A stretch of 64,000 nt of DNA from an uncultured Thermomicrobiaceae bacterium (GTDB lineage Bacteria; Chloroflexota; Chloroflexia; Thermomicrobiales; Thermomicrobiaceae), in NCBI GenBank assembly GCA_938082375.1, contig CALKCJ010000005.1, positions 1-64,000 on the forward strand, read 5' to 3'. Position numbers and translations under genes: made by a program. The first letter of the stretch is position 1. Each line of letters starts with the position of its first letter. Shown piece after piece: positions 40,456 through 45,984 of this stretch. A model generated the notes under the pieces. The model was not told where the DNA came from and made no database searches. It was given only the letters and a program-made list of their open reading frames with translations.

Positions 40456-41327
40456 CTACCCCTCGTGTCCAGGATCTTGGCCCTGGCCCGCCAATCGCCT
40501 CGCGAGGTCTTCGAGCCAGGCGAGGTCGACCTCCTTCGGGAGCTGGAAGCTCTCGGCCATGGTCGGGAACTCGCCGCTCCGGACCGCCTCGGCGTAGCGG
40601 GCCAGCACGTCGCGGATCAGCTCGCCCGCTTCCAGGAAAGGCCTGGAGTGCCGTGGCAGCGGCCCGGGCAGGAGGTGGAGGAGGTCGGCGATCACCTGCA
40701 CTTGGCCGTCACAGTGCGGCCCGGCGCCGATGCCGATCGTCGGGATCTCAAGGAGCTCTGTCACCACCCGGGCGACCGGCCAGGGGATCCCCTCCAGCAC
40801 CAGCGAGAAGACGCCGGTCTCCTGCAGCACGAGCGCGTCCTCGATGAGCCGCTGGATCTGTTCTCTGGTTCTGGCTTGCACGCGGAAGCCGCCGGTCAGG
40901 TGGACGGACTGCGGCAGTAGCCCATCACCGGGATCCCGGCAGCGATGATCTTGCGCACCTGCTCGAGCACAGTGCGCCCACCTTCGAGTTTGACCGCCTG
41001 CGCACCGCCTTTCTGGATCAGCCGGCCGGCGTTGCGCACCGCGTCCTCGCTGCTAACCTGGTAGGACATGAACGGCATATCAGCGACGACCATCGCGCGC
41101 TGCGTCCCGCGCATTACAGCCCGGGTGTGGTGGATCATCTCCTCGAGCGTGACCGGCAGTGTCGTCTCGTATCCCAGGGCCGTCATCCCGAGCGAGTCGC
41201 CCAGCAGCACGATCGGGATCCCGGCCTCATCGAGCAGGCGCGCCAGCGGGTAGTCGTACGCGGTCACCATCGCGATCCGCTGGCCGTTGCGCGTCATTTC
41301 CACGAGGTCACGCCCCGTGATCCGCAT
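40456..41327 (-). pseudogene. panB: Ketopantoate hydroxymethyltransferase, broken by a 10-bp deletion
   Basis: The N-terminal half (40896-41327) reads normally from MRITGRDLVEMTRNG through VLLGDSLGM to GIPVMG, then shifts frame and stops. The C-terminal half (40456-40930) resumes in another frame at LLPQSVHLTGGFRVQAR and runs to the end. Intact relatives have Gly-His-(Ile/Leu)-Gly here, and exactly ten bases are missing. The sequence around the gap fits loss between two GGGC repeats. The lost His belongs to the conserved active-site GH(I/L)G motif. Neither half has its own good ribosome site at the break. Confidence 0.85.
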
Positions 41328-41337
41328 CGCTCTATCC

Positions 41338-42160
41338 TCACGACTCCTGCGCTGCCTGCACCGCCGCGAGAATCGCCCGAGCCACCGCCACGTCGAGCCC
41401 TCGCCGCTCCGCGAGGGCGACTGTCTGCCGGGCGATCTCGCGATACAAGCCGAGCAACTGGGGAAGGCGCTCCGCTAGCGCGGCGACGTGCCGCCGCACC
41501 GTCTCGACGTCACCGCGAGCGACCGGGCCGGTCAGCGCCTGCACCGCGCCGAGGCGCTCAATGTTCTCTACGGTGGTACACATCAGCGGCGCCAGGCCGC
41601 GCGTCGCCTCGTTAGTAGGCAGCCCGAGCTCTTGTCAGATCCGTGCCGCCACGGCCGCCGGCGTGACGACCGCGTTGGAGGCGAAGACCGCGGCCGCGTG
41701 GTAGAGCGCCCGGTTCGGGCCCTCTACTGCCAGCGGGTAGCTACCGAGCCGGCGGGCCCGCTCTTCCAGATAGCCGCGCAGCGGCTCCGCCGCCTTGATC
41801 CCAAAGACGCACCCGGCGAGCCGCTTGGCGTCCTCCTCGGTGCCAGCAAACGTCTGTACCGGGTGGAAGCCGCCGACCCGGGCGCCCGCTTGCCGCGCCC
41901 GCTCGAGCACGTCGAGTCCATGGACGCCGCTGCAGTGGACGGCTGCCATGCCTGGCCGCCACTCGAGCCCGGAGCAGACCCCCTCGATCGCATCGTCCGC
42001 CACAGTCAGGAACACCAGCTCGCAGGAGTCGACGGTCGCCTGAGCAGAGCCAGCGACCGAGCAGCCAAGGGTGCGCCCGGCCAGCAGCTCGGCGCGCGCT
42101 GGCTCCCGGTCGTAGACGGCGGTCACGGCCACGCCCGCGCGGGCCAGCGCCCCCGCCAGC
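41338..42160 (-). pseudogene. DUF2520 NAD(P)-binding protein, decapitated and with a nonsense codon
   Basis: The body of a DUF2520 protein is readable: RAGVAVTAVYDREPARAELLA, LVFLTVADDAIEGV, VHCSGVHGLDVLERA, FHPVQTFAG, then the alpha-helical domain ALYHAAAVFASNAVV. An in-frame TGA at 41635-41637 interrupts it after AVAARI. The same frame then continues QELGLPTNEATRGLAPLM to its normal end at 41338. The first beta strand and GxGxxG loop are absent; in their place the frame runs on from an AfsR-like regulator. Genes of this family often sit beside panB and panC, which supports an ancestral DUF2520-panB-panC operon. Confidence 0.8.
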
Positions 42161-42900
42161 CGCAGGCCATCCCAGGCATCGCGCCGCTCGAGGAACCAGG
42201 CCAGGGCCACGCGAAGGTTGTGGTGCTCGCGCTCCAGCCGGGCGAACCAGACAATCTGCTCCGGCCCGCGCAGCGTGGGCTCCGCCTCTTCAGCCAGGGC
42301 TAGGTAGCAGGCCGCATGCCGCGCGCGCAGCGCCTCGACCTCGCCGGCCTCCGCCAGCCGCTCGGCGGCGTACTGGCGCACCGTCTCCAGCAGCCGGTAG
42401 CGCCCGTCCGGGTCGCTCGCGTCGGTGACGACGAGCGACTTCTCGACCAGTTGGAACAGGAGATCCCAGACCTGCTCGCGCTGGAGGCCCGAACCGGGCA
42501 CGACCGACTCGATCGCGGCGAGCGTGCCACCGCCAGCGAAGACCGCCAGCCGGCGCAGGAGCGCTCGCTCCGGCTCCGACAGGAGCGCGTAGCTCCTGTC
42601 CAGGGTCGCCCGCAGGGTGCACTGCCGGGGGCTAGCCGTCCGGCTCGCGCTGGCCAGGAGCCGCAGCGGGTCACCGAGCGCCGCGGCCAGTTGCTCCAGC
42701 GTCAGCGCCGAGAGGCGCGCGGCGGCCAGCTCGATCGCCAGCGGCAACCCCTCCAGTCTCCAGCAGATCTCGGCGACCAGAGGCACGCGCTGCTCGGTGA
42801 GGGTGAAGTCGGGCTGTACCAGGACGGCGCGCTCGCAGAAGAGGCGCACCGCCTCGCTAGGATAGAGCTCCTCGCTCGAGGGGAAGCGGTCGCAGGGCAC
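41635..42900 (-). other. Chimeric open frame: regulator tail fused to DUF2520
   Basis: A single open frame of 421 codons. Residues 1 to about 250 are the second half of an AfsR-type ATPase (AICWRLEGLPLAIELAAARL, RYRLLETVRQYAAERLAEAG, LEREHHNLRVALAWFLE). Residues from about 253 are the DUF2520 Rossmann domain (ARAGVAVTAVYDRE). The join lies in GLRLAGALARAG, where both families have similar residues (about 42136-42168). It has no convincing start signal of its own. I regard it as a deletion scar, not a designed fusion. Confidence 0.7.
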
Positions 42901-44413
42901 TCATGTGCGCAATCCAGCAGACCTAGAGCTCCTCGCTCGAGGGGAAGCGGTGCAGATCTGGCAACTCCAGCGGGGGCACCCGCCAGACCCGCTCCCCTGG
43001 TACGCGCAGCGGCTCGCGGCTGGTGGCCAGGATCTGCACGCCAGGGCAGCCGGCCAGCACGACCGTCGCGAATTGAGCGCACGCGTCGATCAGGTGCTCG
43101 CAGTTGTCCAGCAGGAGCAGCAGCCGCCGGCTGCGCAGCGCCTCGACCAAGCTCGTCGTCGGCGACCGTCCGGGTTCGGGCTCGACGCCGAGCGCCGCCG
43201 CGACGGTCTCCGGGACGACGGCCGGGTCGGTGAGTGCGCCGAGCTCGACCAGCCACACGCCATCCGGGTAGACCGCCACCAGCTCCGACGCGACCGCGAG
43301 CGCGAGGCGGGTCTTGCCATAGCCGCCGACCCCGGTCAGCGTGAGCAGACAAGCCGGCGCGGGGTCGACCAGCAACTCGGCGATTGCCTCCTTCTCCCGC
43401 TGCCTCCCGACGAAGCTGGTGAGCTGCACGGGCAAGTTGTCTCGCCGCGGAGGCGTCGCCGGTTCTGGGGCACTACTCGGCTCCGAGGGAGCCGGGAACG
43501 AGCCCGACAGGATCGCGAGGTACAGGCTCTGCGTCGCCGGATCCGGCGCGACGTCGAGTTCGCGCCGCAGCGTGTCGCGCAGCCGGCGGTACTGGCGCAG
43601 CGCCTGCTGGCGCCGGCCAGTGAGCGTGGAGAGGCGCATCAGACGGGCGTGGGCGTCCTCGAGCGCTGGCTCGAGTTGGACTGCTCGCTCCAGCGTCGTG
43701 ATCGCCGACAGGTACTCGCCGTCCCGCTTGTGCAGGTCGGCCAGCTCGAGGAGCAGCCCCAGGAACGTCTCGCGGAGCGACTCGCGCCGCGTGGTCGTCC
43801 AGTCCTCGTCGCGCTCCTCTGGGCGCAGGTCGCCGGCATAAAGGTCGATGGCCGCCTGGTAGGCAGCGACCTCGCCGGAGCGGCGAGCGGCTGCCGTGGC
43901 CGCTTCGAACGCCTCCACGTCGATCCAAAGGGGCCCCTCAGGGTAGAGCAGCAGGCGCTCGCCGCGAGTCTGGACGAGCGCCTGCGGGGGAGCCGGTAGC
44001 GCATGGAGCACGCGCCTGGCCGCGTGGAGCGCTGAGCGTAACCGGGCCGAGGCGATCTCCGGATCTTCGTCGTGCCAGAGGAGGTCGATGACCTCATCGC
44101 GATAGAGCGCGCGTGTCGGAGAGAGCGCGAGGAGCTCGAGCACCGCGGCGGCTGCCCGCCCTCGCCAGCGCGCGCCGCTCAGCGTCGTGCTCTCCAAAGC
44201 GATCGAGAAACCGCCGAGGAGCCGGATGCGGAGCGTCGCCGGCTCGCTCGCCGGTCGCTGTGGAGGATCGCCAGGTACACCAGATGGGTCAGCGAGCCCG
44301 CGGCCAGAGCCGCCGCTGGAGCGCGCATCCAGATTGGCGGCCGCCTCCCCGGCTGGACGCTCGATCACGACCGATATCCGTGTCCCAATGGAGCATGTCC
44401 TCGTTACTGGCAT
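42150..44413 (-). pseudogene. AfsR/SARP-like transcriptional regulator, split by a 61-bp insertion
   Basis: The first part (42923-44413, 496 codons) has a winged-helix domain (about 62-150: LRIRLLGGFSIALE), a bacterial transcriptional activator (BTAD) domain (about 165-305) and an NB-ARC-like ATPase with Walker A GVGGYGKTRL (361-370) and LLLLLDNCEHL. It stops at RFPSSEEL. The protein resumes in a different frame at the second copy, RFPSSEELYPSEAVRLF. Removing 61 bases restores one perfect frame. The remaining C-terminus is lost through fusion to DUF2520. The start at 44413 is uncertain; no strong ribosome site is seen. Confidence 0.8.
42863..42951. repeat. 28-bp direct repeat flanking a 33-bp filler
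   Basis: Copy one is 42863-42890 and copy two 42924-42951; they are identical over 28 bases. Between them are 33 bases (42891-42923) that do not look like regulator coding sequence and contain a small inverted repeat (GCAC, four bases, GTGC). The net gain of 61 bases causes a frameshift. Confidence 0.9.
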
Positions 44414-44538
44414 GATACTCACAGGCGCGGCTTCGGCCAAGAGGACGATCGTCCTGCTTCCGGGGCTCGGGCTGGAAGGAGCAGATGCGCGGGCAGCAGT
44501 GCCAGCGGGCGGCCGGTGGGCTGGCGGAGCAGGTGATC

Positions 44539-45984
44539 CTACGCCCCGCCTCGCCCCAGTGCCTGCCGGAGTGCCTGGACGAGGTCGCCGTCCTGGTCGG
44601 GCAGCACGGTGCGGGCGTCGATCAGCAGGCGCCCGCTCTCGACTCGCGGGATCACCGCCGGACGGCCGGTCCGCAGGCGGTGGGCGAGCTGGTCGAGGGT
44701 CAGGCCATGCGCGCGAGCAACCGCCTCCGGGATCGCCAGCGCGCGGCTCGGGAGGGTCTCGCCAGGCAGCGAACCGCCCCCGACCGTCGCCTGGCTCTCG
44801 ACCACTGCCAGGCCAGGCACGTGACCGAGCTGGGCGAGCCAGGACCGGCACCGCGCCTCAAGCTGGTCTTGCGGCGTGCTGATCATCCGCCACACCGGCA
44901 CCTTGGCCAACGCCTCGTGGTAGAGATAGTGGCGCAGGGTCGCGGCGATACCCGCGAGGGCCGTCTTGTCGGCCCGCACTGCCCGCGCCAGTGGGTGCGC
45001 GGCCACGCGGCTCACCAACTCCCACGTGCCGGAGACGATGCCGGCCTGCGGCCCGCCCAGCAGCTTGTCGCCGGAGAAGCAGACGATGTCGACTCCGGCT
45101 GAGAGCGCCTCCCCCACCGTCGGCTCGTGGGCCAGGCCGAAGGGTGCGGTGTCGAGCAGTGCTCCGCTCCCCAGATCCTCGATCAAGAGGATGTTGTGCT
45201 GGTGGGCCAGCTCGGCCAGCTCGGCCAGCGCCGGCTGAGCGGTGAAGCCGACGATGCGGAAGTTGCTCCAGTGCACCGAGAGGATGGCCGCTGTCTCCGA
45301 GGTGATCGCGGCTGCGTAATCGCGCGTGTACGTGCGGTTGGTCGTTCCGACCTCGACGAGCCGGGCGCCACTCTGTGCCAGCACCTCCGGGATCCGGAAC
45401 CCCCCGCCGATCTCGATCGCCTGGCCGCGCGAGACGATGACCTCGCGCCCGGCGCAGAGGGCGCTCAAAACGAGTAGCACCGCAGCGGCGTTGTTGTTGA
45501 CGACTAGCGACGACTCGGCTCCGACCAGCAGGCGCAGCAGCCGGCTGATCTCGACCATGCGCCCACCCCGGCGCCCGCTGTCGAGCTCGAGCTCGAGTGG
45601 GGTATAGCGCGAGGCGGCCAGGGCCATCGCCTCTGCCGTCTCAGCGCTGACAGGGGCACGCCCCAGATTCGTGTGGACGATCACCCCGGTTCCGTTGATG
45701 AGCGGAGTCAGGCGTGAGCGTTCCAGTTGGTCGAGCTCTCGCCGGACTGCCTCGATGATCTGATCCGGATCGATCTCTGCCGTGCCGCCCAGGATCGCCG
45801 CGCGGACGCGGCCGACGACCTGCTGGGCGACGTACGTGACGACCTCCTTGGGGAACCGCTCCAGGTAGCGGTCAAGCTCGGGGTAGGCCAGGATTGCGCT
45901 GATGGACGGGATCTGGCGGAGGCGCTGCTGTCGCTCCTCGTCTGTTGCTGCCTGCGGCGATGGTGCTGGGACACCTTCGGCCAT
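44539..45984 (-). CDS. selA: L-seryl-tRNA(Sec) selenium transferase
   Basis: 481 residues. It converts serine on tRNA(Sec) to selenocysteine using selenophosphate and PLP. The N-terminal helical domain (about 24-90, with IPSISAILAYPELDRYLERFPKE), the INGTGVIVHTNLGRAP block and the PLP lysine Lys307 in FSGDKLLGGPQAG are all typical. It starts after AAGGGGCG. The usual companions selB and selC (tRNA-Sec) are not next to it; downstream is the split regulator. They may be elsewhere or lost. Confidence 0.94.
   Translation of the reverse strand: MAEGVPAPSPQAATDEERQQRLRQIPSISAILAYPELDRYLERFPKEVVTYVAQQVVGRVRAAILGGTAEIDPDQIIEAVRRELDQLERSRLTPLINGTGVIVHTNLGRAPVSAETAEAMALAASRYTPLELELDSGRRGGRMVEISRLLRLLVGAESSLVVNNNAAAVLLVLSALCAGREVIVSRGQAIEIGGGFRIPEVLAQSGARLVEVGTTNRTYTRDYAAAITSETAAILSVHWSNFRIVGFTAQPALAELAELAHQHNILLIEDLGSGALLDTAPFGLAHEPTVGEALSAGVDIVCFSGDKLLGGPQAGIVSGTWELVSRVAAHPLARAVRADKTALAGIAATLRHYLYHEALAKVPVWRMISTPQDQLEARCRSWLAQLGHVPGLAVVESQATVGGGSLPGETLPSRALAIPEAVARAHGLTLDQLAHRLRTGRPAVIPRVESGRLLIDARTVLPDQDGDLVQALRQALGRGGA

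Follow-up and report, generated by a model that had tools for sequence, protein, structure and literature searches.

A 61-bp insertion in a regulator gene of an uncultured Thermomicrobiaceae bacterium as a probable off-target spacer integration by type I-E Cas1-Cas2

A regulator gene in an uncultured Thermomicrobiaceae bacterium is interrupted by a 61-bp insertion that, in our judgment, very probably (at a probability of roughly 0.88) arose by off-target spacer integration into coding sequence by the cell's own type I-E Cas1-Cas2. The insertion lies in the window, as we call the whole stretch of 64,000 nucleotides analyzed here, and consists of a 28-bp target duplication and a 33-bp insert, which are the repeat and spacer lengths of the host's own system. 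Cas1-Cas2 is proposed as the cause because a type I-E repeat-spacer unit measures 28 + 33 = 61 bp and a complete system of this type is encoded in the genome. An integrase was probably at work, most likely Cas1-Cas2, which the initial annotation of this DNA had not listed among the candidate causes.

Anatomy of the insertion and state of the regulator gene

Two copies of the 28-mer TAGAGCTCCTCGCTCGAGGGGAAGCGGT, at 42863-42890 and 42924-42951, are 100% identical and directly oriented, with a start-to-start distance of 61 bp. They flank 33 bp (42891-42923), just as the initial annotation described. Beyond the copies the flanking bases no longer agree (A/C to the left, C/G to the right), which limits the match to exactly 28 bp. 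The first copy is native coding sequence of the regulator and constitutes one repeat-like unit, the second is its duplicate, and the 33 bp between them are the presumed spacer.

An empty counterpart of the site was found in the sister genome G003, which belongs to the same genus and is ∼94% identical in this region. Its contig C97 carries one copy of the 28-mer (L022 4179-4206) and no 33-bp filler, and the single-copy site, TAGAGATCCTCGCTCGAGAGGACGCGGT, lies within an intact gene. Alignment of the window with G003:C97 over 42302-43300 contains a sole gap, of exactly 61 bp. The insertion is located outside any CRISPR array, at a site that is demonstrably empty in the sister. Because G003 has one copy, lacks the filler, and retains an intact gene, the 61 bp were evidently gained by insertion in the window's lineage. 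Both 28-bp copies share the same three differences from G003, with zero differences between the copies; the duplication therefore postdates either those changes or the divergence of the two lineages. The congener G002 was left out of the site comparison because its contig ends within the regulator gene; the third congener, G001, gave merely weak matches to that gene, and the named relatives among the genome contigs, at a protein identity of just 34 to 48%, are uninformative on the site.

In G003 the regulator is complete, at ∼1,000 residues (L022 2372-5404, minus strand), and comprises a winged-helix-like start, BTAD, an NB-ARC ATPase, TPR repeats, and a C-terminal LuxR-type helix-turn-helix. 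Its translation across the site, HRVLSSEDLYRSEAV, is uninterrupted. In the window, the 61 bp (1 mod 3) shift the reading frame, and a stop follows. The N-terminal fragment, with the winged-helix-like region, BTAD, and NB-ARC, occupies 42923-44851 on the minus strand, in a listed ORF that begins upstream of the true gene start and ends in ...HRFPSSEEL*. As 61 cannot be divided evenly by 3, the regulator continues past the insertion in another frame, and this continuation (NB-ARC to TPR region) occupies 42173-42900 on the minus strand; the minus-strand ORF at 41635-42900 includes RFPSSEELYPSEAV.

The regulator is damaged again at ∼42146-42172: an in-frame DUF2520/Rossmann-like gene stands in place of its C-terminal third, which comprises what remains of the TPR region plus the LuxR helix-turn-helix. 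In G003 the two genes are on separate contigs, the regulator on C97 and the DUF2520/Rossmann-like gene on C88. The initial annotation had held that removal of one copy plus the filler restores the regulator frame exactly. This is correct at the insertion site and does not extend to the regulator as a whole: because the gene is also truncated and fused downstream, loss of the 61 bp would not give the regulator back.

At the fusion junction, the matches to the two parent genes overlap by ∼27 bp (42146-42172), which points to recombination between short homologous stretches or to a join made in assembly. Downstream of the fusion, the DUF2520 gene has an in-frame stop at 41635-41637 that is not present in the congeners. 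The nearby panB gene is split by a 10-bp deletion (40910-40925) that is private to the window's genome, and the 10 bp are kept in all three congeners. Given these other lesions in the panB and DUF2520 genes, local decay or sequence quality is a caveat on the insertion.

The host type I-E system and the likeness of the target to its repeat

A complete type I-E locus (cas3, cse1, cse2, cas7, cas5, cas6, cas1, and cas2) was identified on contig C21 with Pfam or NCBIfam models, with cas1 matching TIGR03638 (E=2.7e-110) and cas2 matching TIGR01873 (E=2.2e-22). Residues E138, H205, and D218 of the host Cas1 align with E141, H208, and D221 of the E. coli protein; thus, all three catalytic residues are kept. 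The cas genes precede an array in which the repeat GTGATCCCCACGCACGTGGGGGTGGACC occurs 11 times with a period of 61 bp, and the congener G001 has a related type I-E system with 47 repeats. When the repeat was taken as 28 nt and the arrays of the window's genome (G000) and G001 were pooled, 54 of 56 spacers were exactly 33 nt, the length of the insert, and the first base of the 33-nt spacer was G in 51 of 56. These figures agree with E. coli, in which each acquisition by the type I-E system adds 61 bp (PMC11788318) and the protospacer is 33 bp, the G that ends its AAG motif being the first base and lying next to the repeat (PMC10011333). A search for type I-E cas2 in congeners did not find it in G003, which has the empty site, or in G002.

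At its 3' end, the next-to-last repeat of the C21 array (L028 16567-16595) is degenerate, reading GGTGGCACT in place of GGTGGACCG, which fits a position near the array's old end. The genome also contains two further cas1 genes, on contigs C3 and C45. Further arrays with a 30-bp repeat, GTTTCAAGCCCTCATAGGTACTGTCGGAAC, are found on contigs C3 (L030, G000:C3, 1-400) and C10 (L073, G000:C10, 48-210), and a pair of 37-bp repeats, GTTGCAATCCCCCGCAGGGGATTAGCGCACGTGCAAC, is found at a contig end on C45 (L031, G000:C45, 1-200). Neither of these other systems was retained as the source of the 61-bp unit: the C3 system has 30-bp repeats and longer spacers, with a period of ∼65 and not 28 + 33, and no array of at least three copies was found on C45.

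The 28-bp target was compared with the host's own CRISPR repeat. In register, 15 of 28 positions agree, with the same GGGG register and a central C-CC-CGC-CG-GGGG pattern. As a background, 0.45% of 217,952 28-mers reach 15/28 per strand, or ∼0.9% for two orientations. The likeness is moderate; it supports off-target integration without proving it by itself. The likeness is oriented, with 15/28 on the plus strand versus 8/28 in the other orientation. The insert begins with G (GGTCTG...) in the minus-strand reading, and it is only in this reading, opposite to the better repeat match, that a PAM-derived G would stand at the junction. The two polarity clues therefore disagree, repeat likeness pointing to the plus strand and the PAM-derived G to the minus strand; integration away from a leader presumably need not preserve polarity. 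The flanks of the insert bear no obvious resemblance to the leader end of the array, and no IHF or leader-like motif was identified at the insertion.

On the Cas1-Cas2 reading, a 33-bp prespacer would have had its two 3' ends joined to opposite strands of the repeat-like 28-bp stretch in the regulator. Fill-in of the two 28-nt gaps would then have duplicated the target, leaving a copy, the 33-bp spacer, and a second copy, arranged like a new array unit, and the integration would have shifted the reading frame and broken the regulator.

Origin of the 33 bp and alternative explanations

Searches allowing up to 3 mismatches found no second copy of the 33 bp and no template in the genome itself, and no donor in 158 genomes of the class. 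When stretches of 17 to 20 bases were used, a single chance-level match of 17 bases (L112) and nothing else was obtained in viral contigs, and no donor was obtained in genome contigs. A blastn search of the 33 bp against phages and plasmids likewise returned no donor (best plasmid match, 18 bases, E=3), and comparison with the spacers of the genome's own and G001 arrays gave nothing above 7-base chance matches. The missing donor says little, because the spacers of the genome's real array also had no significant match when searched against phages. The 33 bp may well have come from a phage or a plasmid.

A scan covered 1.63 Mb, about half of the genome, including contig ends and interiors. No other pair of 28-mers at a spacing of 61 with at least 23/28 matching was present outside the CRISPR array, which puts the match between the two copies well past anything attributable to chance; the remaining long repeats at short distance belonged for the most part to other CRISPR arrays, to contig ends, or to tandem repeats, and no similar duplication with filler was recognized. 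The insertion is a single event in the half of the genome covered, and we count this against off-target integration, together with the missing donor, the disagreeing polarity clues, and the flanks that do not obviously look like a leader end.

The same scan bears on replication slippage or end joining, by which 28 bp would have been duplicated and a 33-bp filler captured, the CRISPR unit size being a coincidence. Short duplications with filler do occur, and 12 bp at 42913-42924 partly match 42759-42770 (11/12 bases); however, both lengths are those of the genome's type I-E repeat and spacer, the target is itself repeat-like, the genome holds no template at up to 3 mismatches, and no comparable filler duplication was recognized in the 1.63 Mb, so that we consider this origin improbable. 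The initial annotation had seen in the insertion a footprint of transposition or of end joining with a templated filler. A recent insertion of foreign-looking filler agrees with our results, but both of the mechanisms named are unsupported, end joining for want of a template in the genome at up to 3 mismatches and transposition because no inverted arms or terminal inverted repeats were found within the 33 bp, which occur once in the genome, and because a target duplication of 28 bp would be very long. A transposon or MITE insertion was rejected on the same grounds of missing inverted arms and single copy. An established CRISPR array was also rejected, as the repeat is native coding sequence and there is a single spacer.

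An assembly or sequence error is conceivable in a draft genome of 61 contigs, the more so with three other lesions within ∼2 kb (the 10-bp panB deletion, the DUF2520 nonsense codon, and the fusion at 42146-42172). Yet the filler is unique and so is not a misplaced assembly piece, an exact type I-E unit is not expected from error, and the completeness of the genome is 99.97%; we regard an error as very unlikely. The initial annotation had also raised a phase-variation switch, in which recombination between the 28-bp copies would toggle the regulator. Identical close direct repeats can recombine, and dropping one unit restores the frame locally, but with a regulator cut short downstream and joined to another gene, a sister that does not have the repeat pair, and a state that, after its loss, could hardly be regained, a switch is scarcely credible. 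Recombination between the copies could nevertheless delete the unit, as in spacer loss from arrays.

Relation to known integration events

Off-target integration by Cas1-Cas2 therefore is our preferred reading, and it has precedents. Integration outside arrays occurs in E. coli upon overexpression of Cas1-Cas2 (Nivala et al. 2018, as cited in PMC11788318 and PMC9456107). The window's insertion is like those events in that spacer-sized DNA lies outside an array at a repeat-like site; it differs in being natural, in an unrelated lineage, and within a coding gene whose ortholog in a sister species has the empty site. Most observations of off-target spacer integration come from laboratory overproduction of Cas1-Cas2. 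Nivala, Shipman and Church, in their 2018 article (Nat Microbiol 3:310-318), reportedly also described putative natural cases in the genomes of Yersinia pestis and Sulfolobus islandicus. The case in the window adds, from a different lineage, another natural example of a phenomenon that is known but rarely documented.

With canonical type I-E acquisition, in E. coli as in the host's own C21 array, the insertion shares the 28-bp duplication and the 33-bp spacer that make up 61 bp per event, whereas its target is a gene and not the leader-repeat, and no prior array is present at the site. Ectopic spacer acquisition within arrays is known from CRISPR3 of Streptococcus thermophilus, a type II-A system (PMC7999890). 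There, too, a spacer is placed at the wrong site, but that site is still inside a CRISPR array, while in the window it is a gene and the system is type I-E.

A naturally arisen, heritable case whose sister retains the empty site indicates that spacer adaptation can mutate genes of the host outside the laboratory. Its footprint, a repeat-length target duplication around a spacer-length insert, is searchable in any CRISPR-bearing genome. Off-target integration is also a candidate route to the birth of new arrays. That the unit in the window is already a nascent CRISPR locus, giving a working guide RNA or serving as a target for further acquisitions, seems to us a long shot; were it so, a host gene would be on its way to becoming an immune array.
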